A stretch of DNA of 64,000 nt. Source: Rhizobium bangladeshense. GTDB taxonomy: Bacteria; Pseudomonadota; Alphaproteobacteria; Rhizobiales; Rhizobiaceae. A model generated the notes under the pieces. That model was not told the origin of the DNA and ran no database searches. It worked only from the letters and a program-made list of their open reading frames with translations. The stretch lies in contig NZ_CP071615.1 in NCBI RefSeq assembly GCF_017357245.1, positions 1 to 64,000 of the forward strand. The letters run 5' to 3'. Every line of letters begins with the position of its first letter. The stretch's first letter is position 1. Made by a program: the position numbers and the translations under genes. Below are positions 1-63,371 of this stretch, in pieces.

Positions 1-642
1 AAGAGCCACGCCTTCGCGGGAAATCTGTCCGATCTGCGGTATGACGTTGAATGCAAGAGGGACAGGGAAGCTCTCCGCAGCGGGTCCGGTGCTCCCCTCG
101 AGCCAGGCTTTGACACCGTCTTCCAGCTCCTTAATCCCGCGCAGGCCAACTCCTGAGGCGGCTTGAAAGGTGGTCAAAAGAACCTGGCTAATGCCGAACG
201 TCGCTATCAACGGTCGCAGTGCCCGAACCAGCTGTATCGTGGAGCAATTTGGATTTGCTACTATTCCAGACGGTGGACGAACCGTAAGTGAACACGCGTT
301 AACTTGTGGTACGATGAGGGGTACGTCAGGCCTCATTCGAAAGGCATTCGAGTTATCAATCACCAAGGCTCCTTGGGATGCGAACCGAGGTATCCATACG
401 CCGCTTACGTCGCCGCCTGCAGAGAAGAATGCAATGTCGGTTTTGGTATCACCGATATCGTTAATGTCGCGGAGTGCCTCAACCTGGTATGTTTGGTCTC
501 GAAACTTGAATTGGCGCGCACCCGAACTGGAGGCGAACATCCGCAGTCGATTGACCTTAATCTCACTTTTTTCCAATAACTTGATCAGGGCCGTTCCGAC
601 CGCCCCGGTTGCTCCAACGATAGAAATATCTAATGGTCTCAT
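1..642 (-). CDS. asd: Aspartate-semialdehyde dehydrogenase, N-terminal part (runs off the window)
   Basis: Reads from ATG at 642 without a stop to base 1, giving 214 residues of a protein normally about 340 long. The N-terminus is a Rossmann NADP site (IVGATGAVG). The catalytic cysteine lies in the motif PNCSTIQ near residue 128. The enzyme reduces aspartyl phosphate to aspartate semialdehyde, the branch point to lysine, threonine, methionine and diaminobutyrate. It lies downstream of fdxB on the same strand after a gap of about 325 bases, so it may be read with the nif operon. As rhizobia carry a chromosomal asd, this is probably an extra symbiotic copy. It would supply the substrate of the EctB-like aminotransferase at 15598. 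Confidence 0.9.
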   Translation of the reverse strand, partial: MRPLDISIVGATGAVGTALIKLLEKSEIKVNRLRMFASSSGARQFKFRDQTYQVEALRDINDIGDTKTDIAFFSAGGDVSGVWIPRFASQGALVIDNSNAFRMRPDVPLIVPQVNACSLTVRPPSGIVANPNCSTIQLVRALRPLIATFGISQVLLTTFQAASGVGLRGIKELEDGVKAWLEGSTGPAAESFPVPLAFNVIPQIGQISREGVAL

Positions 643-968
643 GAGTACCTCATTTAGACGCTCGTGGTTGGATCTTGCTTTCAATATTCGAAGCTCGCTT
701 CGGCCGCCCAAGGATGTAACTGGAAGTCTGTCGTCGCGGCTTGATGCACAGTTCAATGCCTCCTCTCTTCAGATCGTTGGACTTTCGACCTGGTGTTTCC
801 TGCAATAATTGCCTCCGAATGGCAGATTGGACGCCTAGAAAGGTCTTCGCGTCGCCAGCCGGATTTGCTTTCAGGAAGCTGCCATGCGGCCTTCTCCACG
901 TCTTCGAACCGATGCGATAGTCTCGCAATTTGGACGGTGCCGGCGGCTTCTAGCGCTCGGAACGGAAT
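643..968. other. Gap between fdxB and asd, no recognised gene
   Basis: The minus strand has an open frame (650-928, TTG start) with no recognisable motif and a poor start. No clear promoter for asd was found. It may be an untranslated spacer of a nif-asd transcript. Confidence 0.5.
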
Positions 969-1672: not shown

Positions 1673-2992
1673 TCAACTGGACCGTGGGTTCGGAGGGTGG
1701 TTGGCCTGAATGATGTTTGCGAGGTCAAAGATCACATCGCGGGTTCCCCGGTATAATATTGTAAGCTTTTGCTGGCTGCCGACGCGGTCGAAAATTGGCA
1801 AACCAAGCCGCATCAGCGGAACGCCGAGGCGTTTGGCAGCTTCCCGGCCGTGCGAGTGTGTGGCGATAAGATCGGCCGTTGCGGCGAGACTCTCCAGATC
1901 GCTGAGATCACCGACTTTGACGGTGTTCGCCGGTACCATCTCGAGTGCCTTCGAAGTGCCGGTCGTGGCGACTGCGACCGCAATTTCCGCACCCATGGCA
2001 GTAAAAAGATTGGAGAACTGGAAAAGCTGATCCGGCTCGGAGGCGATTGCGATCTTCTTGCCTGCCATATGGAAATGTCCGTCGAGCATCGCATCCTGCA
2101 GCTGCATTCGATTGCGGCGGACGTTGAGCGGCGCCTGTTTCCGTGACAGAGCGGCAAGCACGCGAATAAAGCGATCGACGTTCTCTAGGCCCGTTAGCGA
2201 TCTAAACAGGACGTATGGGACGCCGGTCAGTCTCTGTAGCGCTTCAGCCGGTCGCCGCATATGCTCACCGATTGCGATACACTGCATCGCAGTACCAAGA
2301 TCGCGGATTTCCTGCACTTTCGTGCCGCCATATGTGGTCGGCATCCATTCTTCGGGGATGGACCCGTCGAGCGCTCCCGACACATCGGGAAGGATAACCG
2401 GATCGAGCCCGAAGCTTACGGCCGTCTCGCGCAAATGTTCAATATCAGCAACTGTTAAGTTGCAGCCAGGCAAGATCGCGATCTTGCCTGCATCTCGATA
2501 CTGCTTTTCAGGTCGTGTTATTGCCTCGATCATGGCGGTAACAGCTTTAGACCAACCTTCCTCTATGGCGCCGTCAAAGTCCGGCGTGTTGGCGAGTACC
2601 ACTTCGGTGCCCACAAGTTCTATCGCCCGCTTGCGTTTTATGTTTTCGACGTCACCGGCGACATCCTCGTCGCGGGCCTCTACCGATGCGGTCGTGCATA
2701 TCCCGATCAGTCGTGGTCTTGTGCGGGCTTTGAGGCTGAGAATTGCCTCTTCGAGACGATCCGCGCCGCCGACGATTATCGAGGTTTCGTTCATCGCCGT
2801 CGTTTGCAGCGGGATCGCTTCATTGAAATGCCTCACGAGCAGTGCGAGCGCGAAGCTCGTACATCCCTGGCTGCCATGGAGCAGAGGTATTGCGCCGTCG
2901 ACGCCGAGAAAGGCGAAGGCAGCACCAAGCGGCTGAGACGACTTCAGGGGGTTGACCGCCGCCGACTTATTTTGAGATACGACGCGTGCCAT
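1673..2992 (-). CDS. nifN: Nitrogenase cofactor scaffold subunit NifN
   Basis: 439 residues, a normal length. NifN pairs with NifE in the cytoplasmic scaffold on which the FeMo-cofactor precursor matures. Visible are the NPLKSSQPLGAA segment shared with NifK, HGSQGC near residue 40, a long central region with GGTKVQEIRDLG, and a C-terminal FDRVGSQQK block. The gene lies 77 bases after nifE and 22 bases before the nifX start. Nothing suggests damage. Confidence 0.96.
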   Translation of the reverse strand: MARVVSQNKSAAVNPLKSSQPLGAAFAFLGVDGAIPLLHGSQGCTSFALALLVRHFNEAIPLQTTAMNETSIIVGGADRLEEAILSLKARTRPRLIGICTTASVEARDEDVAGDVENIKRKRAIELVGTEVVLANTPDFDGAIEEGWSKAVTAMIEAITRPEKQYRDAGKIAILPGCNLTVADIEHLRETAVSFGLDPVILPDVSGALDGSIPEEWMPTTYGGTKVQEIRDLGTAMQCIAIGEHMRRPAEALQRLTGVPYVLFRSLTGLENVDRFIRVLAALSRKQAPLNVRRNRMQLQDAMLDGHFHMAGKKIAIASEPDQLFQFSNLFTAMGAEIAVAVATTGTSKALEMVPANTVKVGDLSDLESLAATADLIATHSHGREAAKRLGVPLMRLGLPIFDRVGSQQKLTILYRGTRDVIFDLANIIQANHPPNPRSS

Positions 2993-3069
2993 AGTACGAC
3001 CTCAACATTTTTTGCGAGTGATCTCGCGGTTTTGGTTCGACGCGCTTACGCTTCTCTTTTAGCTCGTTT

Positions 3070-4467
3070 TTAAACGACCAAGGCCGGCTCCCATGGCGCC
3101 GGCTCGCGCACCTGCGGCCACATCGGATTGTGGATTGCCAGGTCAATTTGTCGAGCAAGTTGCACCATTCCCTCATAGCCAGCGTAAGCGTGATGACGCT
3201 CCTGGTTGATGTCGAGCCAGGGCAGTTTTGCCTTTAGCGCTATATACTGGGTGCGTCCGCCCGACAGCATGATGTCAGCCTTTCTCTCGAGTAGAAGCGA
3301 GAAAAGTTCGCGCGGCGACATCGACTCGAACAGGAGGTTCTCCTCCTTCAGGGTCTGTTTCACTCGCTCTCTATCTTCGAGCGTCGATTTCTTGACTGAT
3401 GTGCCGACGATCTCCATGCCGATCTCCATCAAGGCATGGACGACCGACCATGATTTCACGCCGCCTGTATTTAGAAGCACGCGCTTGCCCTCAAGGCGAG
3501 GTCGGTAGGCTTCCAGCCTCTTCCACACTTTTTCCTCTTCTTCCGCTACAAGGATTTCCGTGCGACGCAAAAGCGAGGGGTCGGCACCTTTCCTTACAAG
3601 CAGATCGGCGATCCGCCGGAGCGCCTCCGAGGTGCCGGAAATGCCATAGAAGGAGCCCTCAAAAAATGGAATGTCCCAGCGTTCCTGCATCTTACGTGCC
3701 AAAGCAACGAACGCTGTCGAACACACCGTCATCGCTGCGCGTGAGCGGTGGGCGGAGGCGACGTGCAGGTATCGCGCGTCTCCCGGGATACAGGCGCGGA
3801 CGCGGATGCCGAGCTTATCCAAGAGCGGCTTCACCAGCCAGAACTCACCCGAGAGGTTAAATTCGCCGAGTATGTTGATATCGCAAACGCTTGGTTCATC
3901 GGCCTCCACGGTACCAATGACATGCTTTAGTAGCGCCTCGCCCGCTAGCTTGTTGCCGAGGTTCTTAGATCCGAGGAAGCCTGGCGCATTGACCGGCACC
4001 ACTGGTAACGCAAATTCGTCCGACGCTCGCTTGCAAACAACCTCGATGTCGTCGCCGATCATAGCCGTTATGCAGGTTGAATAGACGAAGATTGCCGCGG
4101 GCGCATACCCCTCCTTAATTTCCCGGATTGCTTTAAAGAGCTTCCGTTCACTGTGGCCCATTACGATGTCGATTTCCGTAAGATCAGTCGTGAAGCTCGT
4201 GCGCCAAAGTGTTGGACCTGACGAGGCAGTGCCACGGTTGTCCCAGGAATTTCCCTCGCAGGCGAGCGGTCCGTGAATCAGATGCGCGACATCGGTAATC
4301 GGCTGCAATGCGACCTTGGCGCCGTCGAAAGCGCAACCGCCGACAGCCGTTCCCGGGGCCATTGGCCTCGCGCAATTCTTTCGGCGCGCCTTAGGACCCT
4401 TGCCGCCGCTCCTTTCACTCGCTAGCTCGTGGAAGGCATCTTTGATGTTGGCGTTGGGCGAGGACAT
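3070..4467 (-). CDS. nifE: Nitrogenase cofactor scaffold subunit NifE
   Basis: 465 residues, homologous to NifD. Cluster-ligand cysteines are visible in GGCAFDGA (near 44), HGPLACEGNSWDNRG (near 71) and STCITAMIGDD (near 131). It forms the NifEN tetramer with NifN, which holds the [8Fe-9S-C] precursor while molybdenum and homocitrate are added. It is 55 bases downstream of nifK in the same operon. Confidence 0.97.
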   Translation of the reverse strand: MSSPNANIKDAFHELASERSGGKGPKARRKNCARPMAPGTAVGGCAFDGAKVALQPITDVAHLIHGPLACEGNSWDNRGTASSGPTLWRTSFTTDLTEIDIVMGHSERKLFKAIREIKEGYAPAAIFVYSTCITAMIGDDIEVVCKRASDEFALPVVPVNAPGFLGSKNLGNKLAGEALLKHVIGTVEADEPSVCDINILGEFNLSGEFWLVKPLLDKLGIRVRACIPGDARYLHVASAHRSRAAMTVCSTAFVALARKMQERWDIPFFEGSFYGISGTSEALRRIADLLVRKGADPSLLRRTEILVAEEEEKVWKRLEAYRPRLEGKRVLLNTGGVKSWSVVHALMEIGMEIVGTSVKKSTLEDRERVKQTLKEENLLFESMSPRELFSLLLERKADIMLSGGRTQYIALKAKLPWLDINQERHHAYAGYEGMVQLARQIDLAIHNPMWPQVREPAPWEPALVV

Positions 4468-4521
4468 TCGTCTGCCTTCATATCTGGTTTGAGAGATAGG
4501 CCGCCTGGCCGGCCGCCGCTC

Positions 4522-6063
4522 TTAGCGAGTGAGGTCATACGAATAGTCTGTCACACCGGCGTGCATTGTTTCGCGATCGAGGTTGTCGAAGATCTTGTCG
4601 AGGATCGCGGTCAAAAGACGCAGTCCGCCCTGGTAGCCCATGAGGGGGAATCGATGATGATGGTGCCGGTCAAAAATTGGAAAGGTTAGCCGAACCAGTG
4701 GGGTACCGGTGTCCCGTTCGAGATACTTCCCATAAGAATTGCCTATCAGGAGATCCACGGGCTCAGTGAAAAGTAGCGAGCGCAGTGCCCAGAGATCTTT
4801 GCCTGGCCAAACCTGTGCATTCTTCCCGAAGGGCGAGGATGCGAGGAGTTCCTTCATCTCGTCCTCCCAAGCTGAGGTGCCGTTAGTGGCAAGGCAGTGG
4901 GTTGGCTCGCCGCCGGTTTCCATGATGAAGCGCGCCATCCCATAGACGAAATCTGGATCGCCGTAGATCGCGTATTTTTTTCCATACAGCCAAGCTTGGC
5001 TGTCCGCCATCGCGTCGATGAGTCGCCCGCGCTCCAGACGGATCACCTCGGGAATTTCTCTCGTGGAAATGTCAGATATCGCCATCAGGAGTTCGTCGGT
5101 AGCTTCGACGCCAAGAGGATAGCGGAAGGAGGTCGTCGCTTGTCCAACGGCTCTGCAGTAATCCAGCGTCTTGCGAGTGTTGTAATATTGCAGGGACAAC
5201 GTCCCCTCCGCGTTCAACGCCGCCTTCACGTCATTGATTTTGGTCCCCCCGTCATACATACGAAAGTTACCATCGGAGGGGGTATCGAACTGATCTGATG
5301 CGTCCTGGATGAACATGTAAGTCACTTGCATCAAGTCGAGCAGGCGTTTTAATTCGCGATTGTTCCCAACGCAGAAGCCATCAAATCCAGGAATGATGTT
5401 AACAGAAGCGGTGGCTTCACTTCGCGCGGTGCCCTTCCAGAAATTCTCCAGCACACCTTTTACCATGCTGTCGTAGCCATCGACATGGCTGCCGACAAAG
5501 GCTGGTGTGTGGGCAAAGGGGACATCGAAATCGCGCGGGACCGAACCTTCACTTTTGGCATTTTCGATAAAACCATGCAGGTCATCTCCGATGACCTCTG
5601 CCATACATGTGGTCGACACCGCGATCATCTTCGGGTTATAGAGCTTGTACGTGTTGGCGAGACCGTCGACCATATTTTTCAGGCCACCAAAAACAGCCGC
5701 GTCTTCTGTCATCGATGACGAGACCACCGATGACGGCTCCTTGAAATGGCGCGATAGGTGCGATCTGTAGTAGGCAACGCAACCTTGGCTGCCATGGACG
5801 AACGACATCGTTCGCTCGAATCCCGCCGCTGCGAACACCGCACCGAGGGGCTGGCAGGCTTTGGCTGGATTGACGACAAGGGCTTGGCGGGCCAAGTTTT
5901 TCTCTCGGTATTCCCAGCTCTTCGTGAATTCGCGCTGGTCCGACACGACCTGATCCGGGTGTGGGCACTCGAATTTCAGCTTTTTTTTGGCCAACATCTT
6001 CCTGTATTCCGGCTCGCAGAATAGGGGCGCGTGGTCGAGAGTTTTCTCAGCTGACTGCGGCAT
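4522..6063 (-). CDS. nifK: Nitrogenase MoFe protein beta chain
   Basis: 513 residues from ATG at 6063. The start was chosen for its GAGGTGA ribosome site and because MPQSAEKTLDHAPLF is the usual rhizobial N-terminus. P-cluster cysteines appear in KACQPLGAVFAAAG, HGSQGCVAYYR and STTCMAEVIGDD. With NifD it forms the alpha2beta2 dinitrogenase. The gap to nifD is 94 bases. Intact. Confidence 0.98.
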   Translation of the reverse strand: MPQSAEKTLDHAPLFCEPEYRKMLAKKKLKFECPHPDQVVSDQREFTKSWEYREKNLARQALVVNPAKACQPLGAVFAAAGFERTMSFVHGSQGCVAYYRSHLSRHFKEPSSVVSSSMTEDAAVFGGLKNMVDGLANTYKLYNPKMIAVSTTCMAEVIGDDLHGFIENAKSEGSVPRDFDVPFAHTPAFVGSHVDGYDSMVKGVLENFWKGTARSEATASVNIIPGFDGFCVGNNRELKRLLDLMQVTYMFIQDASDQFDTPSDGNFRMYDGGTKINDVKAALNAEGTLSLQYYNTRKTLDYCRAVGQATTSFRYPLGVEATDELLMAISDISTREIPEVIRLERGRLIDAMADSQAWLYGKKYAIYGDPDFVYGMARFIMETGGEPTHCLATNGTSAWEDEMKELLASSPFGKNAQVWPGKDLWALRSLLFTEPVDLLIGNSYGKYLERDTGTPLVRLTFPIFDRHHHHRFPLMGYQGGLRLLTAILDKIFDNLDRETMHAGVTDYSYDLTR

Positions 6064-6157
6064 AGGGTCACCTCTTTCGATCTGGCCGCGGCTCAAGGGC
6101 GGTCCAGAAACATGCGTCGTTTAAGCCGTTGCGCGTTTACGCGCGAACGCTATGTTC

Positions 6158-7642
6158 TCACCCAGCAACCGCCGCCAAAATGCGGTCATTTTTCCAGGGC
6201 GCGTCGTAGAGACCCCAAACTGGATTGTTGATGGCCATGTCCATGTCCCGAGCGAAAATTGCGAAGCCGTCATAACCGTGATACGGACCAGAATAGTCCC
6301 AGGAGTGCATCTGACGGAATGGAATGCCCATTTTCTGCACCGGGTATTTTTCTTTAACGCCGGACCCGACGAGATCGGGCCGAATTCCCTCAATGAATTT
6401 CTCAAGTTCATAGCCAGTCACATCGTCGTAGATCAGCGTGCCATCTTTTACATAATGGCCAGTGCGCTGATAGTCGTCGCCGTGACCGAATTCGTAACCG
6501 GTTCCTACGATTTCCATCCCGAGGTCCTCATAGGCGGTGACGACGTGACGAGGACGCAATCCCCCGACGTAGAGCATCACCCGTTTGCCGGAAAGGCGCT
6601 GCCAGTATTTGTCGATTACGGCCCAAACGAGGGGTTGGTATTTGGCTATGACCTTTTCGGCTTTTTCTTGGATCTCCGGCCCGAAGTGTTCGGCAATGTT
6701 GCGCAGCGAGGCATCGATTTGGGAGTGTCCAAAGAAATTATATTCCATCCAAGGGATGCCATATTTTTCCTCCATGTGCCTGGAGATGTAATTCATCGAC
6801 CGATAGCAGTGAATGAGGTTGAGTGCCGCTCTCGGCGCGCGCTCCACTTCGGCGAGAGTTGCATCTCCGGACCAGTTGCCGACCACGCGCAATCCGATCT
6901 CCTCGAGCAGGATGCGTGAGGCCCATGCGTCGCCGCCAATGTTATAGTCGCCTATGACATTTACGTCGTAGGGACCTGGATCGAATTTTATGTCTTTCTT
7001 GTCGAAGACCCAATCTCGAATTGCGTCGTTGGCGATGTGGTGGCCAAGCGATTGCGACACGCCACGGAAGCCTTCGCAGCGTACTGGCACGACGGTCGTC
7101 GCGTGTTCTTTGGCCTTCTTTCGCGCTACGGCCTCAATATCGTCGCCAATCAGACCGATCGGACATTCCGATTGTAGGGTGATGCCATTGCTTAGCGGGA
7201 AAAGTTCAGCAATCTCATCGATGACCTTTTCCAGTTTCTTGTCACCACCGAAAACGATATCTTTTTCCTGAAAATCAGATGTAAATTGCATCGTCACGAA
7301 TGTGTCGATGCCTGTCAGACCGACGTAATAGTTGCGACGTTGCGACCAGGAATATTGACCGCAACCCACAGGCCCGTGTGAAATGTGAACCATATCCTTG
7401 ATTGGTCCCCAGACGACACCTTTTGAACCGGCGTAAGCGCAGCCGCGGATCGTCATCACGCCTGGAACAGACTTGATGTTCGACTTTACCTCGCATTCGC
7501 TGGTCGCGTTTCCGTCCTTTTCGCTCGTTGCAAGGCTAAGGTGCTTACTGCGGCGCTTTGCTGCTTTGTCCGGGTATTGGGAGAGCACATCCGCTATAAG
7601 CTTCGCATGGAAGTCACTGTCATTGTGGTATTTGAAGGTCAT
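6158..7642 (-). CDS. nifD: Nitrogenase MoFe protein alpha chain
   Basis: 494 residues. P-cluster ligands lie in [18 protein letters not shown] and [11 protein letters not shown]. The FeMo-cofactor cysteine lies in [10 protein letters not shown], and the cofactor histidine in [16 protein letters not shown] near the C-terminus. It reduces N2 at FeMo-co with electrons from NifH. It lies 103 bases after nifH. All key residues are present, so the enzyme should be active. Confidence 0.98.
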
Positions 7643-7745
7643 TGACGCTACCCCTTGAAAAAGTCTGGGTGAAGTCTCATTGGCGAAACCTCCCTCACGC
7701 GATGCCGGGCGCTTTGCGTGTCGCTGGTCGCACGTGTCAGTGTGA

Positions 7746-8783
<1,038 letters not shown>

Positions 8784-10801: not shown

Positions 10802-10886
10802 TGCGTTGTTCTTCTCAATTCCGAATTTTCCGCCTAGCTAGCTGAAATGGCAGCGAAATTGTTGCTCGCTAGCTGAATCGGCCTGC

Positions 10887-15228: not shown

Positions 15229-15363
15229 ATGCTTTGGTAGCCCCTCCTTCGCCGATTCAAAGTGATCACGGCAAAAAGATAAACGACTCGCACATGAGTT
15301 CCACGCGCCGCAATCGGTTAACCGTTTATAGGAGCCACGATGTACGACATTGTCACGACAATT

Positions 15364-15379
15364 TGCCGGTTCAGCGACA
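15364..15379. promoter_or_regulatory. Variant NifA activator site
   Basis: TGC-N10-ACA (TGCCGGTTCAGCGACA), one base off consensus, 86 bases upstream of the -24 GG at 15465. The spacing equals that at nifH (86) and the redoxin gene (88), which supports it despite the mismatch. Confidence 0.6.
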
Positions 15380-15463
15380 TGCCTGCATTTCTCGGCCCAT
15401 ATTTGGGCGCCTAAATAGCTGGCATAGCAGTGAATAATATGGGTCGTCTATAAAGAAGCTGAC

Positions 15464-15478
15464 TGGCACGAAACTTGA
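15464..15478 (+). promoter_or_regulatory. Sigma54 promoter of the EctB-like gene cluster
   Basis: TGGCACGAAACTTGA followed by GAGA, the same -24 box and GA-type -12 box as nifH. It is 119 bases before the GTG start of the aminotransferase. Nothing else is recognisable in 15229-15597. Confidence 0.8.
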
Positions 15479-15597
15479 GAGAATTGGGCCGGACGACGAA
15501 GGTTGCAAGTCATCGCCGTTGAGCCGAGGCGGGATTCCGATCGGACCCTAGCTCGGACAGCAGACCGAAATTACAGCGTTTAAAAAGGAGTAAGATC

Positions 15598-16872
15598 GTG
15601 TTCGCTGACAACAACTCCAACTCGCTTTCTGTGTTCGAAAATCTCGAATCGAACGTGAGGTCGTATTCGCGATCCTTTCCTACCGTATTTAGGAGGGGCG
15701 TCGGAGCCATTATCGAGGACGAGAAGGGCTGCAAATACATCGACTTTCTCTCCGGCGCGGGTGCTCTCAACTACGGTCACAACGATCCCGAGTTGATAAA
15801 TGCCATGGTAGAATACACGAAATCGAGTGCAATAATCCATGGATTGGACATGGCTACGTCAGCTAAACGACAGTTTATGGAGTTTTTCAATGCCACTATT
15901 TTACGCCCGCGTGGTTTGAAATATAAGTTTCAATTCCCCGGCCCGACCGGCGCTAATGCCGTGGAGGCGGCCTTGAAGCTCGCACGCAAAGTCACTGGAC
16001 GGCATAACATAATTTCATTCACCAACGGCTTTCATGGAGTGAGCTTGGGCGCGCTTTCGGTGACGGGTAATCGTTACTACCGCGATGCGGCAGGCCTTCC
16101 TCCAGCCGGCGCCGTATTCATGCCCTATGACGGCTACTTCGGGCCTGAAACAGACACGTCGGAGTACCTGGACAAAGTGTTTTCGGATGCAAGCAGCGGC
16201 ATAGATCTCCCAGCAGCCATCATTTTGGAAACCGTTCAAGGCGAGGGGGGCATAAACGTCGCGAGCGAGAAGTGGCTGCGGTCGGTCGAGCGAATTTGCA
16301 GAAAGAACGACATTCTCCTCATCGTTGACGACATTCAAGCAGGATGTGGGAGAACCGGCGGTTTCTTCAGCTTTGAGTTCGCCGGTATATCGCCCGACAT
16401 AATCGTTCTCTCGAAGTCGCTGAGTGGCATTGGGCTGCCGCTGTCTCTTTTGCTGCTCAAGCCGGAGTTGGACGTATGGCAGCCGGCAGAACACATCGGA
16501 ACGTTCCGGGGCAACAACCTTGCGCTCGTGACAGCGACGGGCGCCTTGAGAAAGTTCTGGGCAAATGAAAATCTATCTGACGATGTCATGGAAAAAGGAA
16601 GTATCATGAGGGAGCGCCTGTGGCAGATCGCGCAAAGCACCCAAAATCACAATCTATCCGTCCGCGGAAGAGGCCTGATGCTGGCGCTCGACTGTGCTGT
16701 AGGCAATGTGGCCGAAAGGATCGTTCGCAAAGCCTTTGATGAGGGGCTTGTGGTAGAGAGATGCGGTGCAGAGGACCAAGTTATCAAGTTTCTTCCACCT
16801 CTGACGATCGATGCGCAAACGCTTCAACGTGGTCTGGACATTCTGGACCTGTCTGTCCACGCGAGCGTCTGA
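15598..16872 (+). CDS. EctB-like diaminobutyrate aminotransferase (class III, PLP)
   Basis: 424 residues from GTG 15598 (AAAAGGAG upstream), the length of EctB/Dat enzymes. Motifs: FLSGAGALNYGHNDP near 50, GPTGANAVEAALKLAR near 118, VDDIQAGCGRTG near 241, and the PLP lysine in VLSKSLSG near 268. The family turns aspartate semialdehyde plus glutamate into L-2,4-diaminobutyrate. EctA and EctC homologues are not seen here, so ectoine itself is probably not the product; instead a GNAT and an ATP-grasp ligase follow. First gene after a NifA/sigma54-type promoter, so expression in nodules is expected. Substrate assignment is by family and context only. Confidence 0.85.
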   Translation: MFADNNSNSLSVFENLESNVRSYSRSFPTVFRRGVGAIIEDEKGCKYIDFLSGAGALNYGHNDPELINAMVEYTKSSAIIHGLDMATSAKRQFMEFFNATILRPRGLKYKFQFPGPTGANAVEAALKLARKVTGRHNIISFTNGFHGVSLGALSVTGNRYYRDAAGLPPAGAVFMPYDGYFGPETDTSEYLDKVFSDASSGIDLPAAIILETVQGEGGINVASEKWLRSVERICRKNDILLIVDDIQAGCGRTGGFFSFEFAGISPDIIVLSKSLSGIGLPLSLLLLKPELDVWQPAEHIGTFRGNNLALVTATGALRKFWANENLSDDVMEKGSIMRERLWQIAQSTQNHNLSVRGRGLMLALDCAVGNVAERIVRKAFDEGLVVERCGAEDQVIKFLPPLTIDAQTLQRGLDILDLSVHASV

Positions 16873-16980
16873 CTCTAACAGCCGAAAATCGGACAGGCTC
16901 AATGCATGGTCAGCGACATGACTTCCTTCGAAAGCGCGTAGGCCTACGGTTGCGGAACTAATGTTACTGAGGGGCCGGAC

Positions 16981-17046
16981 TTGAAGCAGAAGATGCTCAT
17001 CGCCGGCGGCGGCGCCTGGCAGTTGGCTCGCAGGCCCCATGTTTAA
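16981..17046 (+). pseudogene. Possible start of a lost ATP-grasp gene
   Basis: A 22-codon reading, LKQKMLIAGGGAWQLARRP and so on, resembles the opening beta-strand and glycine loop of ATP-grasp ligases (KKILILGGGPWQ-like). It ends in a stop. Short and speculative. The rest of 16873-17153 shows nothing recognisable. Confidence 0.25.
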
Positions 17047-17153
17047 CCTAGAGGCCCAGGAAGGTCCTGCATCTCGCGCAAGGTTCATGAAGAGCTCCGA
17101 CCCGTGGCTTAGTCGAAGCCCCCTGGTACTTCACTCAAATTTAGGAGGTAACG

Positions 17154-17444
17154 ATGAGCGACCCTGTTGGCATTTATATTGATCATCAGATGACCGTTGC
17201 CAATCCCCCAAGTAAAGAAGCTCGAATATATTCGCCGTTGGCTGCGAAGAAGGTAGACAGCGCAGCGGAGATTGGACTGCCGGTGAGTATAGGCCGTAGA
17301 CGCCGGCGGCATGCGTGTCCGATTACGCCGCAACGCCGACGGGGTGACCAAACAGACGACTCATCTGTTGGGCGAAATGCCCCTCTAGCGATCTTCGCCG
17401 CAAACACTGGTGGAATAGGAGAAGTGACATGCACGGAAACGTGA
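17154..17444 (+). CDS. Small basic protein of unknown function, possibly frameshifted
   Basis: 96 residues after a strong ribosome site (TAGGAGGTAACG). The N-terminal half (MSDPVGIYIDHQMTVANPPS ...) looks protein-like. From about residue 48 the frame becomes arginine-rich (SIGRRRRRHACP), whereas a neighbouring frame from 17296 reads VDAGGMRVRLRRNADGV and ends at the TAG near 17388. A small indel may therefore have changed the C-terminus. It overlaps the GNAT start by 16 bases. No homologue is known to me; a short carrier or precursor peptide for the following ligase and acyltransferase is conceivable but unproven. Confidence 0.4.
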   Translation: MSDPVGIYIDHQMTVANPPSKEARIYSPLAAKKVDSAAEIGLPVSIGRRRRRHACPITPQRRRGDQTDDSSVGRNAPLAIFAANTGGIGEVTCTET

Positions 17445-18130
17445 CGACGCTCGATGTATCAAAATATATCTGCGCGACAAACGAGTTGGCACGCCGATCC
17501 GGTCTCAGCATTACGATGGGCGAAGACTTTGAGGAATATGTGGGGATCACCAGCAAAATTCCCGGAAAGCGGCCCACGTATCCTAACTTCCGTCCAGATT
17601 GTTCCGATCTTTTCCCTGGAAAAGCTTTTTGGATTGTCGGGCGAGACAGGGAAGGAACCGTCGCACATGTCCAAGCAATGCGCGTCGACGATCTACGTGA
17701 AACGAACCTAGCAGAGCACCTCGAGTCGCTAAAATCCTGCTTCAAGGATCCTGACTTGAAAGCGGGACAATACTCCTCGTGTCGCTGCTACGCACCGAGT
17801 GCTCGAGGAATAACCGGCGTTGTAGCATATCGTGGCGATCTGTGGCTGCGGGAAGACTTTAGGGGCCGCGGCCTCATGAGTTATATTGGTCACATCGCAT
17901 TCGGATTGGCATGGGCTAAATGGGCGCCCGATTTCATTTATTCGCTGGTTGCCGACTGGTATGTGGCAAAAGGGGTCCTTGGTCGTTCTGGTTACGTGAA
18001 CCGAGAGCAGCATGGGTCGGTCCTGCGCCTCGATGCTGAGGGCATCGATGATGATGATTGGCTCCTTTGGATGACGCGAGACCAAGTGCTGCAAATGATT
18101 TCGTCAACCTTGGAGACTGACAACCGCTAA
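17429..18130 (+). CDS. GNAT-family acyltransferase
   Basis: 233 residues from ATG 17429 (TAGGAGAAG upstream). The acyl-CoA loop is the Q/RxxGxG motif REDFRGRGLMSYIGHIAF near residues 145-165, followed by the usual strand and WYVAKGVLGRSGY. It transfers an acyl group, often acetyl, to an amine. Sequence and length differ from EctA (about 170-190 residues). Placed between the diaminobutyrate aminotransferase and the ATP-grasp ligase, it probably acylates a diamino acid or its conjugate. Cytoplasmic. Confidence 0.72.
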   Translation: MHGNVTTLDVSKYICATNELARRSGLSITMGEDFEEYVGITSKIPGKRPTYPNFRPDCSDLFPGKAFWIVGRDREGTVAHVQAMRVDDLRETNLAEHLESLKSCFKDPDLKAGQYSSCRCYAPSARGITGVVAYRGDLWLREDFRGRGLMSYIGHIAFGLAWAKWAPDFIYSLVADWYVAKGVLGRSGYVNREQHGSVLRLDAEGIDDDDWLLWMTRDQVLQMISSTLETDNR

Positions 18131-18587
18131 TTTGTCTGTGGTGCGTGGCCGCGCTCGGCGCTCGGTTTGCCCCCAAAGCGACAGACAGCTTAGTGATGTG
18201 CGTTCCCGGTCGTAAGGCATCGATCAAGACCAAGGCAATTCTTAGAGGGTCGAGGTTATCAAGCATGACCTTATCCCATGGTTTATCAGTCGGTGAAGGC
18301 AATTGTTGCCTGTTTGCTTGTGGCCCAGAGGGATCAGGCTTTCCTCCCGCCGATAATTGACTCCGGGCCAAACCATGCCGCGAGGTAGGCCTCCTGTAGA
18401 GTTTGTCTACTTCAAAACACAACGCTGTTGGCCTGCCTCCATGCTTTTATGCCCTAAACAGTTGATAAATAAATGGCAATTTCGTCTGAGGCGCGTTCGA
18501 CGCTGTTGGCACGATATTCGCAACGAAAGAAGCGGCGACGTCAACAGGCACTTCTGTGGCGTCCTTCAATCGGTGGAACGAATCGAT

Positions 18588-18811
18588 ATGGATAAGGGTG
18601 GCATAGAGTGTGTTCCTAGCCTCTCTGCACGCGAGAAAGAATCTCTCCTGTGGATAGCGCAGGGAAGACATCGTGGGAAACGGCGGTGATCATGGGGACT
18701 TCTGAAAATACGGTCGCTTTTCATGTGAAGAACTGCCTACGAAAACTGGATGTTCGAACTAGAACGGCCGCCGTCGCGACGGCAACGCGATTCGGACTCC
18801 TGGAGCTATAG
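18588..18811 (+). pseudogene. LuxR-type regulator remnant (frameshifted HTH)
   Basis: SLSAREKESLLWIAQG is the first half of a LuxR/FixJ HTH. The frame then ends, but a neighbouring frame continues with SENTVAFHVKNCLRKLDVRTRTAAVA and LLEL-stop, the recognition helix of the same domain. One lost base near 18665 explains the shift. The N-terminal (signal-binding) part is not convincing upstream, and 18131-18587 holds no intact gene. This was probably once a regulator of the neighbouring biosynthetic genes. Confidence 0.75.
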
Positions 18812-18915
18812 CGAGCACTACTTTTGCATGGCCTGGCACGTTCCTACCTCGTAGGCTTCGATACTCGCCAGAGCCTGTACATAGGGTGCAATCGAAACCG
18901 TGGAGGTCAACGCCA

Positions 18916-20151
18916 TTGGCCAAAAGAGCGCTTATTCTGGTTGAGGGCCATAGAACTATTGGCCATCTGTACGTGAAAGAAGCCCGGCGTTTGGGTCTTT
19001 ACCCAATCACGCTTTCTGCTGACCCAACTCAGTATGCCTATCTCGAGGCGGAAGGCACTGAGGTCATCCCAGTCGCCACAGACAATGTCCAGGCTCTGCT
19101 TCATGAATGTTCACTACTGCGTTCAACCCATGAAATCGCTGGCATAACGGGCTTCTCGGGACTTGACGAGTCGATTTATGTGACAGTCAGCGAACTCTGC
19201 CGGCATTTCCGTCTGCCGGGGCCGGACCCTGCTTCGATCGATCGATGCAACGACAAATTCAATCAACGTCAGTTGCTCAAAAAGGCAGGCATTCCAATGC
19301 CCGCTTATCGCTTAGCAATGGATGCAAAGGAGGTAGAATACGCAGCCGCAGAGATCGGCCTACCTGTAGTTCTAAAGCCTGCTGAAGGAAGCGGCAGCAG
19401 TGGCGTTCGATTGTGCCGCGATGTCGCCGAATTGGCCGCTCATACGAGCTATCTGCTGGGCGGGGAACACACATGGCGGTCCACGCCGAGGATACTAGTC
19501 GAGGAATTCGCAAGGGGAACTTTTTTCAGTGCTAACTTAATGGGGAGCGAAGTCGTAGCAATCGGTGCTTCAGAATTCGGCCCTCCACCGAACTTCGTCT
19601 TCCATGAGACTGTCTTTCCGGCCCCTATGACTGATGAGGAATTTAATCGCGTGGTCGATCTGTCCCTGCGCTGTTTGGAAGGTCTCGGGCTTGGCTGGGG
19701 ACCGACAAACGTTGAATTCCGATGGACAAAGCAGGGGCCCGTGGTGATTGAAGTCAATCCGCGTCTTGCCGGTGGCGCCAGTCCTCGGCTGGTTCAGCTC
19801 TCTTGCGGTACCGACCTCATACGCGAGCATATAAAGGTTGTTATCGGTCAGGAATGGGATTTGCGCAGCAGGCATTCGTGCACTGCAATTGTACGGCATC
19901 TAGTTCCCGTTAGCGATGGTACCTTAGATTGGATTAGGGGCGGCGCCCGGGCGGCTTCTATCCAGGGTGTAGCCGATGTGAAGTTCCATGTAAAACCTAA
20001 CGCCCGGATCATCAGGAGAGGCGATTATACAGATACTCTTGGACATGTCATCGCCGCGTCACCCAACCTCGCTTTGACGCAGGAGATCCTCCAGCGGGCC
20101 GTTGACGAAGTCACTTGGTCAATCACACCATTTCGAACAGACGTCGAATAG
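18916..20151 (+). CDS. ATP-grasp carboxylate-amine ligase
   Basis: 411 residues if read from TTG 18916, which has GGAGGT eight bases upstream; a GTG at 18886 is the alternative. A Rossmann-like pre-ATP-grasp domain (ALILVEGHRTIGHLYV) is followed by ATP-grasp motifs: VLKPAEGSGSSGV near 155, ILVEEFARGTFFSAN, and the Mg-binding VIEVNPRLAGGASPRL near 280. Closest in layout to L-amino-acid ligases and dapdiamide/bacilysin-type synthetases, which join amino acids through an acyl phosphate. With an EctB-like enzyme and a GNAT beside it, it likely makes an amide of diaminobutyrate. The substrate is unknown. Confidence 0.82.
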   Translation: MAKRALILVEGHRTIGHLYVKEARRLGLYPITLSADPTQYAYLEAEGTEVIPVATDNVQALLHECSLLRSTHEIAGITGFSGLDESIYVTVSELCRHFRLPGPDPASIDRCNDKFNQRQLLKKAGIPMPAYRLAMDAKEVEYAAAEIGLPVVLKPAEGSGSSGVRLCRDVAELAAHTSYLLGGEHTWRSTPRILVEEFARGTFFSANLMGSEVVAIGASEFGPPPNFVFHETVFPAPMTDEEFNRVVDLSLRCLEGLGLGWGPTNVEFRWTKQGPVVIEVNPRLAGGASPRLVQLSCGTDLIREHIKVVIGQEWDLRSRHSCTAIVRHLVPVSDGTLDWIRGGARAASIQGVADVKFHVKPNARIIRRGDYTDTLGHVIAASPNLALTQEILQRAVDEVTWSITPFRTDVE

Positions 20152-20667
20152 GGGGGCTCCTCCCGCCAGCGGCTGATGCGGGAGGAACTTGTATTGATGT
20201 GACTCATAACAGAGGGACTCGTTGATGACGCTGTCGTTAATCACCATCACGGAAGCTAAAGCATACGAACGGTGCCGGTTCCCCCATTTCCCTACTCGGC
20301 CACCCTGGCTGCGCGGCACCTCAAACTCCGCCGCTTGTGCGAGGGAACGTTTAATGGGTGCGAGCCATCTCGACTGCATGTGGCAACGCTTGGCCGGCGG
20401 CAAGGCTCTTAGCCGTATTGGCACTTTTGTGGGCCACAAGCGGATGCGTCCCTACCCAATCCTGTAGGTTTCGGCCTGCACTCGAGATTGATATTGCTGA
20501 ATTTAGGAAAGTAGATTTGCGTCGACAGCGCCAGCCGGCGCTGCACCGTCAAATCAATAATGTTGACCTTGCTGAAGCGTGTCGTCAGTCCGTCGACGGG
20601 AGATTGCCGCTGATATTCCTCGCCAACATCGCTGGTGGGGAAGAGGAGCAGAAGAGGGACCAAGTCA
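20152..20667. other. Gap before gltB, nothing recognised
   Basis: Several short open frames occur on both strands but none has a domain, good start or codon bias I can support. No sigma54 -24/-12 box was found. It may hold the gltB promoter or decayed DNA. Confidence 0.4.
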
Positions 20668-25326
<4,659 letters not shown>

Positions 25327-25361
25327 ATGGAACTGGCAGCGACAAAATCGTTTGGTTTTGT

Positions 25362-38131: not shown

Positions 38132-38596
38132 TCAGTCTTCGATCGGAAAGGCAAATCCAGCCTTCACGCGGTCCATGACAACCATTGTTTTAAACCCTTT
38201 AATATCATTGTTCTCGTAGAAGAAACGACGCGTGAACTGCTCGTAATCCTCCATATCTTTTGCCGTAACGACGAGCAGGAAGTCGGCGTCCCCGGTTACA
38301 TAGTAGCCGATCATGACTTCGCGCGTGTTTTTGATTGCTGCCTTAAAGCGATCGATGATGTCAGCCCTCTCTCGCTCGAGGGATACCAGGACGACGACCG
38401 TCACATGCCTGCCGACTGCCTTCGGCGACACGATTGAAACGTCAGCCTCGATGACGCCCTCGGCCCGCAAGCGTTTGAGCCGGCGCTGGCAGGCTGTCGG
38501 TGAAAGATGTGCTCGTTCTGCCAGTTCCTCGGACGTGAGCTTGTTATTCTTTTGAACGGCGTTGAGAAGCGCGATGTCCGCGCGGTCGAGTTCCAT
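38132..38596 (-). CDS. Lrp/AsnC-family regulator
   Basis: 154 residues from ATG 38596; a GTG at 38614 would add six. N-terminal HTH (KLTSEELAERAHLSPTACQRRLKRL) and a C-terminal RAM domain with GYYVTGDADFLLVV, which binds amino acids. Divergent from the aminotransferase operon at 38783, the classical layout of a local regulator that senses the substrate or product. Ectoine-degradation clusters also often carry an AsnC-type regulator. Confidence 0.9.
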   Translation of the reverse strand: MELDRADIALLNAVQKNNKLTSEELAERAHLSPTACQRRLKRLRAEGVIEADVSIVSPKAVGRHVTVVVLVSLERERADIIDRFKAAIKNTREVMIGYYVTGDADFLLVVTAKDMEDYEQFTRRFFYENNDIKGFKTMVVMDRVKAGFAFPIED

Positions 38597-38782
38597 GGTC
38601 GTGAAATCCTGCACCTAGCTTTGAAATTCGCAGAATTCCTGCATAGGCGGCATTATATTGGCCGTCAATCTGCATCAGTTTGGCGCACATTGCGACCATC
38701 GAAGATAGATGCGGGAAATCAGCGGAGCATATCACGCTGGCCTTCAGCCGCTTCACTCCATCGCGCTACGGAAGGGCTCACA

Positions 38783-40186
38783 ATGACCATCAACATCAAG
38801 GACATCGCCGAGAAGGATCGCAACTCGGTACTGCATCCGTTCACTCAGCTGAAGGACTTCGCCAGCGGCAAGCTTGGCGAGCCGACGATTGTTGAAACGG
38901 GCAAGGGTATCCGCATCCAGGACGCCTACGGCAATCAGCTCATCGATGGCTTTGCCGGCCTTTACTGCGTCAATGTCGGCTATGGCCGAACCGAGGTGGC
39001 CGAGGCGATCTCGCGCCAAGCCTACCGGCTTGCCTATTACCACTCCTATGCTGCCCACACGACCGACGAACTGGCGATCCTGTCAGACCGTCTGGTAAAG
39101 ATGGCGCCGGGCAAGATGAGCAAGGTGTTCTACGGCATGTCCGGCTCGGACGCCAATGAGACCCAGGCCAAACTCGTCTGGTACTACAACAACCTGCGCG
39201 GTAAGCCCACGAAGAAGAAGATCATCTCACGCGAGCGCGGCTACCACGGCTGCAGCGTTGTCTCCGGTTCGATGACCGGCATGAGCTTCTACCATGATCA
39301 CATGGACCTTCCCCTGCCGCAGATCACCCATACCGGCGTGCCGCATCACTACTGGGGCGCCAATCCTGGCGAGACCGAGCGGGAATTCTCCGCCCGCCGA
39401 GCCCTTGAGCTCGACCGCCTCATCGAACAGCTTGGGCCTGACAATGTCGGTGGTTTCATTGCTGAACCCGTGCTTGGTACCGGCGGTATCACGCCGCCCC
39501 CGGAAGGCTATTGGGAGGCTATCCAGGCCGTGCTTAAGAAGCACGACGTGTTGCTGATCGCTGATGAAGTCATTACCGGTTTTGGCCGCACCGGCTCGAT
39601 GTTCGGCTCGCAGCATTATGGCATCGAACCGGACCTGATCACGGTTGCCAAGGGCTTGACCTCTGCCTATTTCCCGCTCTCGGCTGCGATCGTCGGCGAA
39701 AAGGTCTATCAGGTGCTGGAAGACGGAGCCGACAAAGTCGGCGCCTTCTCGCATGGCTATACCTATTCCGGCCACCCGATCGGTGCGGCCGCGGCCAACG
39801 CCGTACTTGATATTGTCGATAAGGAAGATCTGCCGGGGAACGCTCGCGACGTTGGCGCCTATTTCCAGGCGCAGCTCAAGGAGAAGTTTGCTCAGCTGCC
39901 GATCGTCGGCGAGGTGCGTGGTGTTGGCCTTATGGGTGCCATCGAGTTCGTCGGTGACCGCGAGAACAAGACCCGTTTCGATCCGTCGCTGAAGGTGGGC
40001 GCGCGCGTCTCGAAGGCAGCTCGCGACGGCGGTCTGATCGCCCGTGCAATGCCGCATGGCGACATCCTCGGCTTTGCCCCGCCGCTTGTCACGACAAAGG
40101 CAGAGATCGACGAGATTGTCTCGATTGCCGAAAAGGCCGTGCGCTCGGTCATGGACGACCTGGTGCGCGACGGCCAGAAGATCTGA
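38783..40186 (+). CDS. Class III omega-aminotransferase (y4uB-like)
   Basis: 467 residues from ATG 38783. Motifs: [14 protein letters not shown] near 53, [16 protein letters not shown] near 118, [16 protein letters not shown] near 259, and the PLP lysine in [14 protein letters not shown] near 290. The family moves the terminal amino group of diamines, beta-alanine or GABA-like compounds to pyruvate or 2-oxoglutarate, giving a semialdehyde. The aldehyde dehydrogenase next downstream fits. From memory, length and sequence style match y4uB of the NGR234 symbiotic plasmid. GC-rich compared with neighbours. Confidence 0.88.
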
Positions 40187-40353
40187 CCGTTAGCGACTTG
40201 CGCTTTCCGGGCCATCGCGGAACGGCCAGTCGCAATCAGATGGTCGCCGCCGACCCAACAAGCGGGCAAAGGCTGAGGGATGAGACCTCACCCTGCTCGA
40301 AGACCATACCCGCCGCTCTTGCAGGCATTTCATCAGGGAAGGGAAGTTGGCCT

Positions 40354-41763
40354 ATGACCGCTGCCAAACTTCATATTACTACGGGTCTACAGCCCGTATC
40401 CGTTCACAGCCCCTTTGACGGCTCTCTGATCGGATCAATCGACATAACGGACGCATCTGACGTCAGCGAGCTCATCATCCGTGCTCGCCGCGGGGCCAAG
40501 CTCGCGCGCGACCTGCCGCGGCACAAGCGGGCAAGTATCCTCGAGGGAGCTGCGCAACTTATCGAGCGCCGTCTCGATGCCTTCGCCGAGACCATCGTGC
40601 GCGAAGCTGGGAAGACAATCGTTCAGGCGCGCAAGGAAGTCAGCCGTTGCGTTAACACGCTGAAACTTTCTGCCGAAGAAGCAAAGCGCAATGCAGGCGA
40701 GATCGTGCCGTTTGATGCGTTTGCCGGATCAGAGCAAAGACAAGGTTGGTTTACGCGGGAGCCGCTCGGAATCATCGCCGCCATAACGCCTTACAACGAT
40801 CCGCTAAACCTGGTCGCCCACAAGCTCGGTCCAGCAATCGCAGGCGGCAACGCCGTGCTTTTGAAGCCGTCCAATTTGACGCCGTTCTCCGCTATCAACT
40901 TGGTGGACGCACTGATCGAAGCCGGCCTGCCGCGCGATGTCATCACAATCGCTCATGGTGACAGGGAACTTGTCACGGCCTTGATCACATCCCGCGATGT
41001 CCGCATGGTGTCGTTTACGGGTGGATTTGCAACGGGCGAAGCTATCAGCCGCGCGGCGGGGCTGAAGAAACTGGCGATGGAACTGGGCGGCAACGCCCCT
41101 GTCATCGTGATGAATGACTGTGACTTCAGTAAAGCGGTCGATGGTTGTGTTTCGGGCGCCTTCTGGGCAGCCGGTCAAAATTGCATCGGCGCCCAGCGCA
41201 TTCTCGTTCAGGCAGGAATTTATGAGAGGTTCCGCGATGCCTTCGTCGCCGGCACGAAGAAGCTAAAGTCCGGCGATCCATTGCGCAACGATACGGATAT
41301 CGGGCCGATGATTTCCACCCAGTCTGCCGAGCGAACTGAAGCGGCCGTCAATGACGCGATCGCTGCTGGAGCTAAACTGCTGTGCGGACACCGACGTGAA
41401 GCCTCCCTCTACCACCCGACAGTGCTCGAAGGAACGCCGGTGACGTGCAAGCTGTGGCATGAAGAGGTATTCGCGCCCGTCGTCATGTTGGCACCGTTCG
41501 ACACCATCGATCAGGCGATCGAGATGGCCAACGATCCGGACTACAGCCTGCATGCGGGCATCTTTACCAGCAATATTAACGTTGCTCTCGACGCCGCCAA
41601 CCGCATCGAAGCAGGCGGTGTGATGATCAATGACAGCTCCGACTACCGCTTCGATGCCATGCCGTTCGGTGGTTTCAAATACGGCAGCATGGGTCGCGAA
41701 GGCGTTCGTTTCGCTTACGAAGAAATGACCCAGCCAAAAGTCGTTTGCATCAACCGGGGATGA
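40354..41763 (+). CDS. NAD(P)-dependent aldehyde dehydrogenase (y4uC-like)
   Basis: 469 residues from ATG 40354. Cofactor and catalytic motifs: [19 protein letters not shown], catalytic Glu in [11 protein letters not shown] and Cys in [11 protein letters not shown] near residue 275; the C-terminus is complete ([13 protein letters not shown]). Probably oxidises the semialdehyde made by the aminotransferase upstream (167-base gap). It may cover for the dead GabD-type gene at 32090. Confidence 0.88.
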
Positions 41764-46424: not shown

Positions 46425-46639
46425 GGTGCTTTCCTTTGACTTGCGTCCCTGCCGGACCATGGTTCGGTTAAACCAAGCAGGGCGTCAAATTCAGTGTTTC
46501 TATACAATAAATCTTGATACGCTATGGATGACATAATGATTATTAGCGGTGCCTCGCTGGCTTTGAAGGGCGAGGCGTTTCGCGGCCACGAACGATGACT
46601 TCACAGATGACCAGCTCTTATACTTCGTCTAAGCCAACA

Positions 46640-50440: not shown

Positions 50441-50524
50441 GTCGGTCATCCTTTATATGAACTTTTTGCTGACAGACCAGTCGCGCGTTAAGAGCAGCGT
50501 TTCGAGCCACACCCGAGCGTAGGA

Positions 50525-54458: not shown

Positions 54459-54670
54459 AGCGGCTCCTGTTGGCTCGGACTTGGAAACAGTCATGCGCTT
54501 CTCGCAGCAAGAGACCTGCTCCATGGGATCTAAATTTGCTTCCACTCTCTGGAGGAAAGCTTCGAATTTATCGGCTGCTCGAGAGGCTTGGCGAATACGC
54601 CAAACAATACGAGCGAGAGGTTGGTGGCGGGAATTCGAGAGTATGTCCCGCCACGGAAGGCCCTTGTTTA

Positions 54671-56446: not shown

Positions 56447-56463
56447 CTGTGTGCCTCCCCGGT

Positions 56464-57585: not shown

Positions 57586-57675
57586 GCTGCTGTCCTCCAT
57601 CCATGGCGCCCAAAGCGCCTGTGTTAGGTTGCCAATGTGCCGACTGGCGACACATTGGCTTCGAGCGTCCGCTGC

Positions 57676-62487: not shown

Positions 62488-62488
62488 G

Positions 62489-63370: not shown

Positions 63371-63371
63371 A

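Follow-up and report, generated by a model that had tools for sequence, protein, structure and literature searches.

The closest described relative of the system analysed here is the dat locus (C189, RLV_1844) of Rhizobium leguminosarum UPM791, whose purified aminotransferase Dat was reported in 2023 to be active and to make diaminobutyrate (DAB) (PMC10228743). We analysed a window of 64,000 bases from Rhizobium bangladeshense (bases 1-64000 of contig C4, NZ_CP071615.1, which has 369,739 bases in a genome of 6.3 Mb), in which a dat (ectB) gene beside nif is followed by genes for a putative GNAT-fold acyltransferase and an ATP-grasp ligase. The two loci share the EctB ortholog (86% identity), the place beside nifH and TlpA, and the promoter box, whereas UPM791 gave no GNAT match and has other genes in that place, namely two LAL_C2 ligases along with one Ddl-like ligase, a GlutR_N-like protein and an MFS gene. 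The span 15300-20200 of the window is 100.0% identical to plasmid p4 of Rhizobium binae BLR195.

The rhizopine mos genes are driven by a duplicated nifH promoter, and mos and moc are reportedly closely linked on the Sym plasmid, as the title of a cited paper has it. Like the product proposed below, rhizopines are made in nodules under NifA, and their producers typically also hold the catabolic genes (PMC10107442); that chemistry concerns inosamines, whereas amino acids and ATP-grasp ligases are involved here and catabolism of the product is conjectural. The ectoine systems ectABC and doeABCD resemble the window in EctB, in DoeA- and DoeB2-related hydrolases and in a nearby aminotransferase and aldehyde dehydrogenase, but for the window system no EctA match and no intact EctC were found, and its hydrolases score under the Doe cut-offs. 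CIAT 899 is reported to have ectB without other ectoine genes (PMC3557214).

The results indicate that the locus is a real nif-linked biosynthetic module in which one enzyme is proven through its ortholog, and with it bacteroids probably make a DAB-derived amide or peptide.

Genes and promoters of the module

The features of the module (window coordinates, strand) are as follows.
1..650, minus: aspartate-semialdehyde dehydrogenase (ASADH), cut by the contig start, open reading frame (ORF) to 756; Pfam Semialdhyde_dh and Semialdhyde_dhC
1673..8639, minus: nifNEKDH, between ASADH and the EctB side; PF00142 match at 7812-8627, other names by gene order as annotated in locus L010
15364..15379, plus: TGC-N10-ACA, like a NifA upstream activating sequence (UAS) with one mismatch, 100 bases upstream of the dat box, start to start
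15464..15478, plus: sigma54-type box TGGCACGAAACTTGA of dat, from a pattern scan
15598..16872, plus: EctB/Dat, diaminobutyrate-2-oxoglutarate aminotransferase by TIGR02407 and NF006733, both above cut-off
17154..17444, plus: ORF of 96 aa, probably not a gene; no family, frame lost in relatives
17429..18130, plus: putative GNAT-fold acyltransferase, from a structure model against the PDB
18404..18419, plus: perfect TGT-N10-ACA (NifA-UAS type) before the ATP-grasp gene, the same in L006 and L007
18507..18521, plus: sigma54-type box TGGCACGATATTCGC, predicted ATP-grasp promoter, 103 bases from the UAS
18886..20151, plus: ATP-grasp ligase carrying an LAL_C2 domain; both motifs, KPAEGSGSSGV and EVNPR, are intact
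20635..25326, plus: glutamate synthase large subunit (gltB), possible amino-donor supply; NF008730, 1703 bits
25486..26961, plus: glutamine synthetase (glnA), from Pfam
Inverted, identical IS3-type copies (1321/1321 bases) at 9245-10565 and 26977-28297 enclose the segment with dat, GNAT, ATP-grasp, gltB and glnA.

The aminotransferase scored 652 bits against TIGR02407 (cut-off 552.2) and 657 against NF006733 (cut-off 438), and its closest solved structures by sequence were DABA transaminases (PDB 6rl5, 519.5 bits). Judged by these models it is EctB/Dat, a DAB aminotransferase; the original prediction had named an EctB-like aminotransferase, and the enzymatic proof obtained by others for the ortholog upholds that assignment. 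A search for relative loci seeded with EctB returned 80 loci, most of them with chromosomal EctB from Achromobacter and Bordetella; these loci were not used further.

The ATP-grasp protein contained PF18603 (LAL_C2, 47.9 vs 29.4) and ATP-grasp_3 (50.7 vs 23.2), and its best PDB sequence matches were the L-amino acid ligases (LAL) 30vh and 3vot; of the 43 NCBIfam models matched, the 25 listed all stayed below their cut-offs. These domains and matches bear out the earlier description of an amino-acid-ligase-like ATP-grasp gene, whose product would form an amide or peptide bond using ATP. The ATP-grasp fold is shared with L-amino acid ligases (BL00235, BacD) and the dapdiamide synthase DdaF, and RizA is another L-amino acid ligase of this kind; LAL_C2 is present in the window ligase. 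Ten further LAL_C2 ligases on six replicons, the window's included, were 55-62% identical and all kept K164, E289, N291 and R293. Two more LAL ligases lie on the same plasmid at C4:84.7-90.4 kb with a KamA-like aminomutase.

The protein encoded at 17429..18130 matched no Pfam family and no NCBIfam model at E 0.001, whereas its structure model compared with the PDB had the GNAT fold. It is thus, as modelled, a GNAT-fold acyltransferase, and the earlier label stands for the fold but not for a family assignment. Where their source is named, its 98 homologs came from Rhizobium, Sinorhizobium/Ensifer, Mesorhizobium, Bradyrhizobium and Microvirga; Azospirillum and Roseibium gave more distant matches (28-33%). 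Matches occurred in 17 of 297 family genomes, full-length at ≥58% in two, plus one 34-residue piece at 62%; by this distribution the gene is a lineage-limited option of the cluster. Bphy_7268 of P. phymatum, labelled GNAT, was rejected as its ortholog (BLASTP E 0.07). The small ORF that had been counted as a gene of the cluster (17154-17444) had no family match and was dropped as a component because its reading frame is not preserved in relatives, being interrupted by indels in L006 and L007.

The consensus for sigma54 promoters has GG at -24 and GC at -12, and that for the NifA UAS is TGT-N10-ACA; both served as the yardstick here. The dat box keeps the GG and reads GA at -12, a departure also seen in the nifH and TlpA boxes of the lineage, and the dat UAS has one mismatch (half-site TGC). 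One-mismatch UAS sites numbered 166 vs a shuffle mean of 189, i.e. not above chance. Among 13 dat upstream regions scanned, the box was identical in all seven close loci (the window included), and the UAS-like site was present in five of these seven, 100-102 bases from the box, and lost in two. The nifH (6 loci) and TlpA (4 loci) promoters of the lineage have the same box type, with a perfect TGT-N10-ACA 100-103 bases upstream. In 6/6 R. leguminosarum-type loci the dat upstream region aligned with the nifH/TlpA promoter above all 200 shuffles; three control upstream regions of the window did not exceed shuffles. The term nifH-type, used in the original prediction, is therefore right by descent: by alignment, dat in this lineage has a promoter that diverged from a copy of the one at nifH. 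The accompanying claim of a near-consensus NifA site fared less well, given the mismatch and the losses. We infer NifA binding at dat, less firmly for UPM791, where the site is lost.

The ATP-grasp gene carries, by pattern, its own NifA-type promoter, which had been overlooked. The perfect UAS at 18404 and the box at 18507, 103 bases apart and with GC at -12 kept, agree with the consensus; the pair is identical in L006 and L007 and absent in L008, and lies 380-480 bases before the gene with a remnant LuxR-type ORF in between. Perfect UAS and box pairs in the window were found at nifH, TlpA and ATP-grasp only, and none in 60 shuffles. As a further copy of the nifH promoter this element was rejected (alignment score 20 vs shuffle maximum 30). 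The promoters of the nifH and NifA types at dat and ATP-grasp lead us to propose that the product would be made in nitrogen-fixing bacteroids.

Other elements of similar kind were observed. A box TGGCATCGAACTTGC at 25429-25443, shortly before glnA, keeps GG and GC and has no perfect UAS at nif spacing. At window 10786-10902 and 10988-11440, a TlpA/redoxin-like gene comes with a nifH-like box and a NifA-type UAS that is perfect. A LuxR C-terminal regulator is annotated in BLR195 at the position of window 18.65-18.82 kb, where the window has no long ORF. The annotation of pHRC017, NGR234, S. medicae and CIAT 899 also places LuxR-family regulators near EctB. The UPM791 counterpart of TlpA, RLV_1843A, was reported in pea and not lentil bacteroids (PMC7950203).

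Expression, co-occurrence and precursor supply

Published nodule data bear on the module. Dat (RLV_1844), the ATP-grasp proteins 1845 and 1849, the Ddl-like 1846, and 1848 (tags matched to UPM791 genes by order and name) were higher in pea than in lentil bacteroids, so that three of the four Dat neighbours raised in pea are ligases; in the sections cited, Dat went undetected in vegetative cells (PMC7950203). The cited parts of the dat study report that no DAB was detected in pea nodules with the dat mutant, that dat mutants were less competitive, and that 14 metabolites increased with Dat in pea, dipeptides among them, DAB not being identified in the untargeted profile (PMC10228743). In M. loti, msi260 (of R7A), a putative EctB homolog, is nodule-expressed and nifA2-dependent (msi260::lacZ, 1339 to 5.1 units in the nifA2 mutant; PMC3538637). 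In a P. phymatum nifA mutant, ectB, whose product is 51% identical to the window EctB, fell by a log2 fold change of -7.58, aspartate semialdehyde (ASA) and DAB went down, and GNAT, D-Ala-D-Ala ligase and MatE genes also fell strongly (PMC8305402). The NifA dependence of EctB expression in these two species adds to the evidence for the claimed link to nif.

Across 148 Rhizobium genomes, EctB was found in 24 (23 with nifH), ATP-grasp in 33 (31), AspK, an aspartate kinase, in 16 (15), the M24 hydrolase in 11 (11) and nifH in 57; the five protein searches used E-value limits of 1e-150, 1e-100, 1e-110, 1e-120 and 1e-120, chosen by us. EctB and ATP-grasp were associated (Fisher p = 4.7e-16 over 148 genomes, 2.8e-6 within the 57 nif+), as were all six pairs among EctB, ATP-grasp, AspK and M24, also within the nif+ genomes (p 0.0032 to 2.8e-6), values that overstate independence since plasmids are shared among species genomes. 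The co-conservation of the three genes named originally holds in half: EctB and ATP-grasp go together, but the GNAT is limited to some lineages. R. johnstonii 3841 has a 99.7% identical NifH and no cluster annotated beside nif; the module is therefore accessory.

AspK is encoded at C4:368264-369340 and, should the contig (369,739 bases) be circular, adjoins ASADH; the same gene pair is present in BLR195. The protein passed the general model TIGR00657 (211.9 vs 208.7) and reached no listed equivalog cut-off. It showed AA_kinase only and no ACT match, whereas the chromosomal LysC has ACT domains too, which suggests that the plasmid enzyme may be freed from feedback control. AspK without ACT domains and ASADH would complete the route from aspartate to DAB across nif, a point new to this analysis. 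The pair stands across nif from EctB in several loci and in one locus without nif in between; AspK and/or ASADH lie beside or near EctB in L006-L009, L115, L119, L126 and L127. On plasmids in PLSDB (best 60 matches listed per search, best place per record), the best AspK place was ≤25 kb from EctB on 19 of 29 shared plasmids among the matches listed. For EctB, 50 of the best 60 were kept (≥59.5%) and 10 lower ones dropped, of 1853 records; for AspK, 56 of the best 60 were kept and 4 fragmentary ones dropped, of 170 records.

S. meliloti pHRC017 (L115) was seen to hold two ASADH, three LAL-type ligases, EctB, gltB-glnA and isocitrate dehydrogenase, with two AspK places by tblastn. In S. meliloti ml46 pSymA (L155), dapA and a split DegT/DnrJ aminotransferase (25111-27413) lie beside an AspK/ATP-grasp set and may resemble the rhizopine mos locus.

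The cluster is thus larger than first described, taking in AspK, ASADH, more ligases, gltB/glnA and a set of hydrolases and importers. The co-occurrence of EctB, AspK and ATP-grasp, also in nif+ genomes, the rise of ligases together with Dat as read from the published pea-bacteroid proteomics, and the nearby, co-occurring uptake and hydrolysis set are new here; in the titles and abstract openings covered by a literature search with open-access bias, the AspK-ASADH-EctB-ATP-grasp set was not described as a pathway.

Hydrolase and importer set

The region 38-64 kb of the window contains the following genes.
38132..38614, minus: Lrp/AsnC regulator, from family search
38507..40186, plus: class III aminotransferase, possible DAB-to-ASA step; NF005684, 805.6 bits, cut-off 687
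40198..41763, plus: aldehyde dehydrogenase, possible ASA-to-aspartate step; family search
45255..46460, minus: M20 amidohydrolase, DoeB2-related, below cut-off (299 of 550 bits)
49268..50449, minus: M24 hydrolase, DoeA-related, below cut-off (259 of 613 bits)
53280..54545, minus: M24 hydrolase, DoeA-related, below cut-off (400 of 613 bits)
54671..58779, minus: ABC importer with permease, ATPase and PotD-like binding protein; family search
58851..60014, minus: second M20 amidohydrolase, DoeB2-related, below cut-off (330 of 550 bits)
60476..63998, minus: dipeptide-type ABC importer with two oligo_HPY ATPases and permease; family search, last permease ORF 63372-63998 outside it

These ectoine-degradation-related hydrolases, enzymes, regulator and two importers look fit for uptake and breakdown of a DAB-type molecule, judging by their families. 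UPM791 has a comparable set (ABC, M20, M24, two M81, dipeptide ABC, Lrp, aminotransferase, aldehyde dehydrogenase), which comes after the MFS gene, hisD and a cupin gene following it, and similar sets were found in NGR234, where genes annotated for ectoine use accompany them, and M270. In PLSDB (best 30 M24 matches kept at ≥59%, the next at 44%, of 1152 records), M24 shared 21 of 30 plasmids with EctB among the matches listed. The distance between the two genes was less than random (median 0.205 of maximum; Kolmogorov-Smirnov p 4e-6 over 21 records, 7e-5 over 17 after four near-duplicates were dropped). M24 and EctB also co-occurred across the 148 genomes (p = 1.9e-8; 2.2e-4 within nif+), which speaks for linkage only and does not imply the substrate of M24. 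Three CapA-like (PGA_cap) proteins are encoded on the plasmid (window 43788-45170, C4:90645-92060, C4:107661-109070), near hydrolase or ligase sets.

Proposed product and alternative explanations

The claim that bacteroids make a DAB-derived small molecule gained from DAB in pea nodules with the ortholog, the co-induced ligases, the association of EctB with ATP-grasp in nif+ genomes and the NifA-type promoter of the ATP-grasp gene. In the mechanism that we consider probable, the plasmid AspK and ASADH would convert aspartate to ASA, and EctB/Dat would form DAB from ASA and glutamate, as demonstrated for the ortholog. At least one LAL_C2 ATP-grasp ligase would then couple an ATP-activated carboxylate with an amine to yield an amide or short peptide that contains DAB, and in the GNAT-bearing variant an amine would be acylated; both steps are suggested by family and co-expression. 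A captured nifH-promoter copy would drive dat in this lineage, while the ATP-grasp gene would use a NifA-type promoter of its own.

Several observations weigh against this reading. We know of no product or assay for any ligase from the cluster. AspK was not found in 12 of the 24 EctB+ genomes, nor ATP-grasp in two. The dat box, by the pattern used, was absent in all six more distant loci, none of which showed nifH-promoter homology above shuffles (M270 equalled the shuffle maximum); the UPM791 dat upstream region had the box and no UAS was found there; and no box was found by that pattern upstream of GNAT or gltB. Ballesteros-Gutierrez et al., in the sections cited, report no evident NifA site before dat and no induction of dat by microaerobic conditions or homoserine; lentil was the reverse of pea, with DAB in the dat mutant only and tripeptides among 7 compounds rising without Dat (PMC10228743). 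The authors of the M. loti study consider it unlikely that NifA activates msi260 directly, and the mutant was fully effective (PMC3538637). In P. phymatum, one ATP-grasp gene, Bphy_7724, rose (+2.26) in the nifA mutant (PMC8305402). In S. meliloti ml46, AspK, ASADH and ATP-grasps stand with KamA-like genes, no EctB was found in the stretch read, and the class III aminotransferase near the set showed 28% identity. The KamA-like protein of C4 (TIGR03822, 552.6 vs 396) is 93% identical to one on ml46 pSymA, and UPM791 has a protein with the name lysine 2,3-aminomutase, RLV_1884, that is likewise abundant in bacteroids from pea (PMC7950203). With KamA-like genes beside ligases on C4 and in ml46, and with RLV_1884 abundant, the building block therefore appears to vary.

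A rhizopine-like private nutrient, which would amount to a second and widespread kind of rhizopine, is a more speculative extension, which we hold to be possible and rather doubtful. In bacteroids, fixed nitrogen would pass via plasmid glutamine synthetase/glutamate synthase (GS/GOGAT), AspK and Dat into a peptide with DAB or a beta-amino acid in it, built by the ATP-grasp ligases and then exported, and undifferentiated kin carrying the plasmid would import it through the ABC importers and degrade it with the M24/M20/M81 hydrolases to DAB, ASA and aspartate. Ligases and diamino-acid modules (EctB, KamA-like) would be exchanged between plasmids, each plasmid family having its own private currency; pHRC017 and M270 accessoryA, with the module and no nif in the stretches read, would widen the spread.

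The authors of the dat study favour homoserine use and pantothenate supply, in which Dat turns homoserine-derived ASA into DAB as a beta-alanine precursor in homoserine-rich hosts, the ligases being unrelated neighbours. The dat mutant grows more poorly on homoserine and its beta-alanine falls, DAB relieves pantothenate auxotrophy (PMC10228743), and PanD was not found in the R. bangladeshense genome by a search that matched 8 of 14 control genomes. We nevertheless judge this role unlikely: the dedicated AspK/ASADH pair would supply ASA without homoserine, the ligases, co-induced and co-occurring with Dat, are left unexplained, and isolates recorded from Lotus, Phaseolus and Medicago carry the EctB gene on plasmids as well.

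DAB or a conjugate could instead be an internal nitrogen store or compatible solute fed by the plasmid gltB/glnA and not exported, which seems improbable. Both genes lie near the cluster in the window, L006, L115, L119 and L127 (L007 has gltB without annotated glnA), and EctB is an enzyme of the ectoine route. UPM791, however, has neither gene annotated in the stretches read and carries an MFS gene, possibly an exporter, and DAB was not seen in the untargeted profile of the cited sections (PMC10228743).

Ectoine or a relative, with the GNAT as EctA, an EctC-like cyclase encoded elsewhere and the hydrolase/importer set serving ordinary ectoine use, is very improbable. UPM791 is reported, in the sections cited, to be without ectoine clusters (PMC10228743). 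EctC-like genes do occur in 48 of the 148 genomes, and a few of them lie, by coordinates, 1-7 kb from an ATP-grasp gene (G344, a fragment in G339, G404, G029), and the M24 pair of NGR234 adjoins genes annotated eutB, eutC and ehuABCD. However, EctB and EctC were not significantly associated (11/24 vs 37/124, p = 0.10), the GNAT has no NCBIfam match as an EctA, and the hydrolases fall below the Doe cut-offs. The absence of EctC claimed originally holds for the window ORFs but not for the plasmid, on which the sole EctC-like copy found in the genome lies in two pieces (C4:113831-114022 and 114941-115135) with an IS4/5-type transposase between.

DAB is also part of several siderophores. A metallophore or siderophore product can nearly be set aside, since no IucA/IucC match was found in the genome (controls match in 2/14) and no nonribosomal peptide synthetase was seen among the window ORFs searched, although rhizobactin and pyoverdine routes are named with DAB (PMC10228743).

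The preferred reading, a DAB-derived amide or peptide made by bacteroids, touches the old question of which products other than ammonia come from bacteroids, and to whose benefit. It could account for the host specificity of Dat, which ranks high among the published abundant pea-bacteroid proteins. A gene read as part of homoserine metabolism would become a single step in a pathway whose genes can be named, and a nodule metabolite is predicted. If true, a product that draws on fixed nitrogen, and whose genes move with nif and with accessory plasmids, would be relevant to cooperation and cheating between the symbiotic partners.

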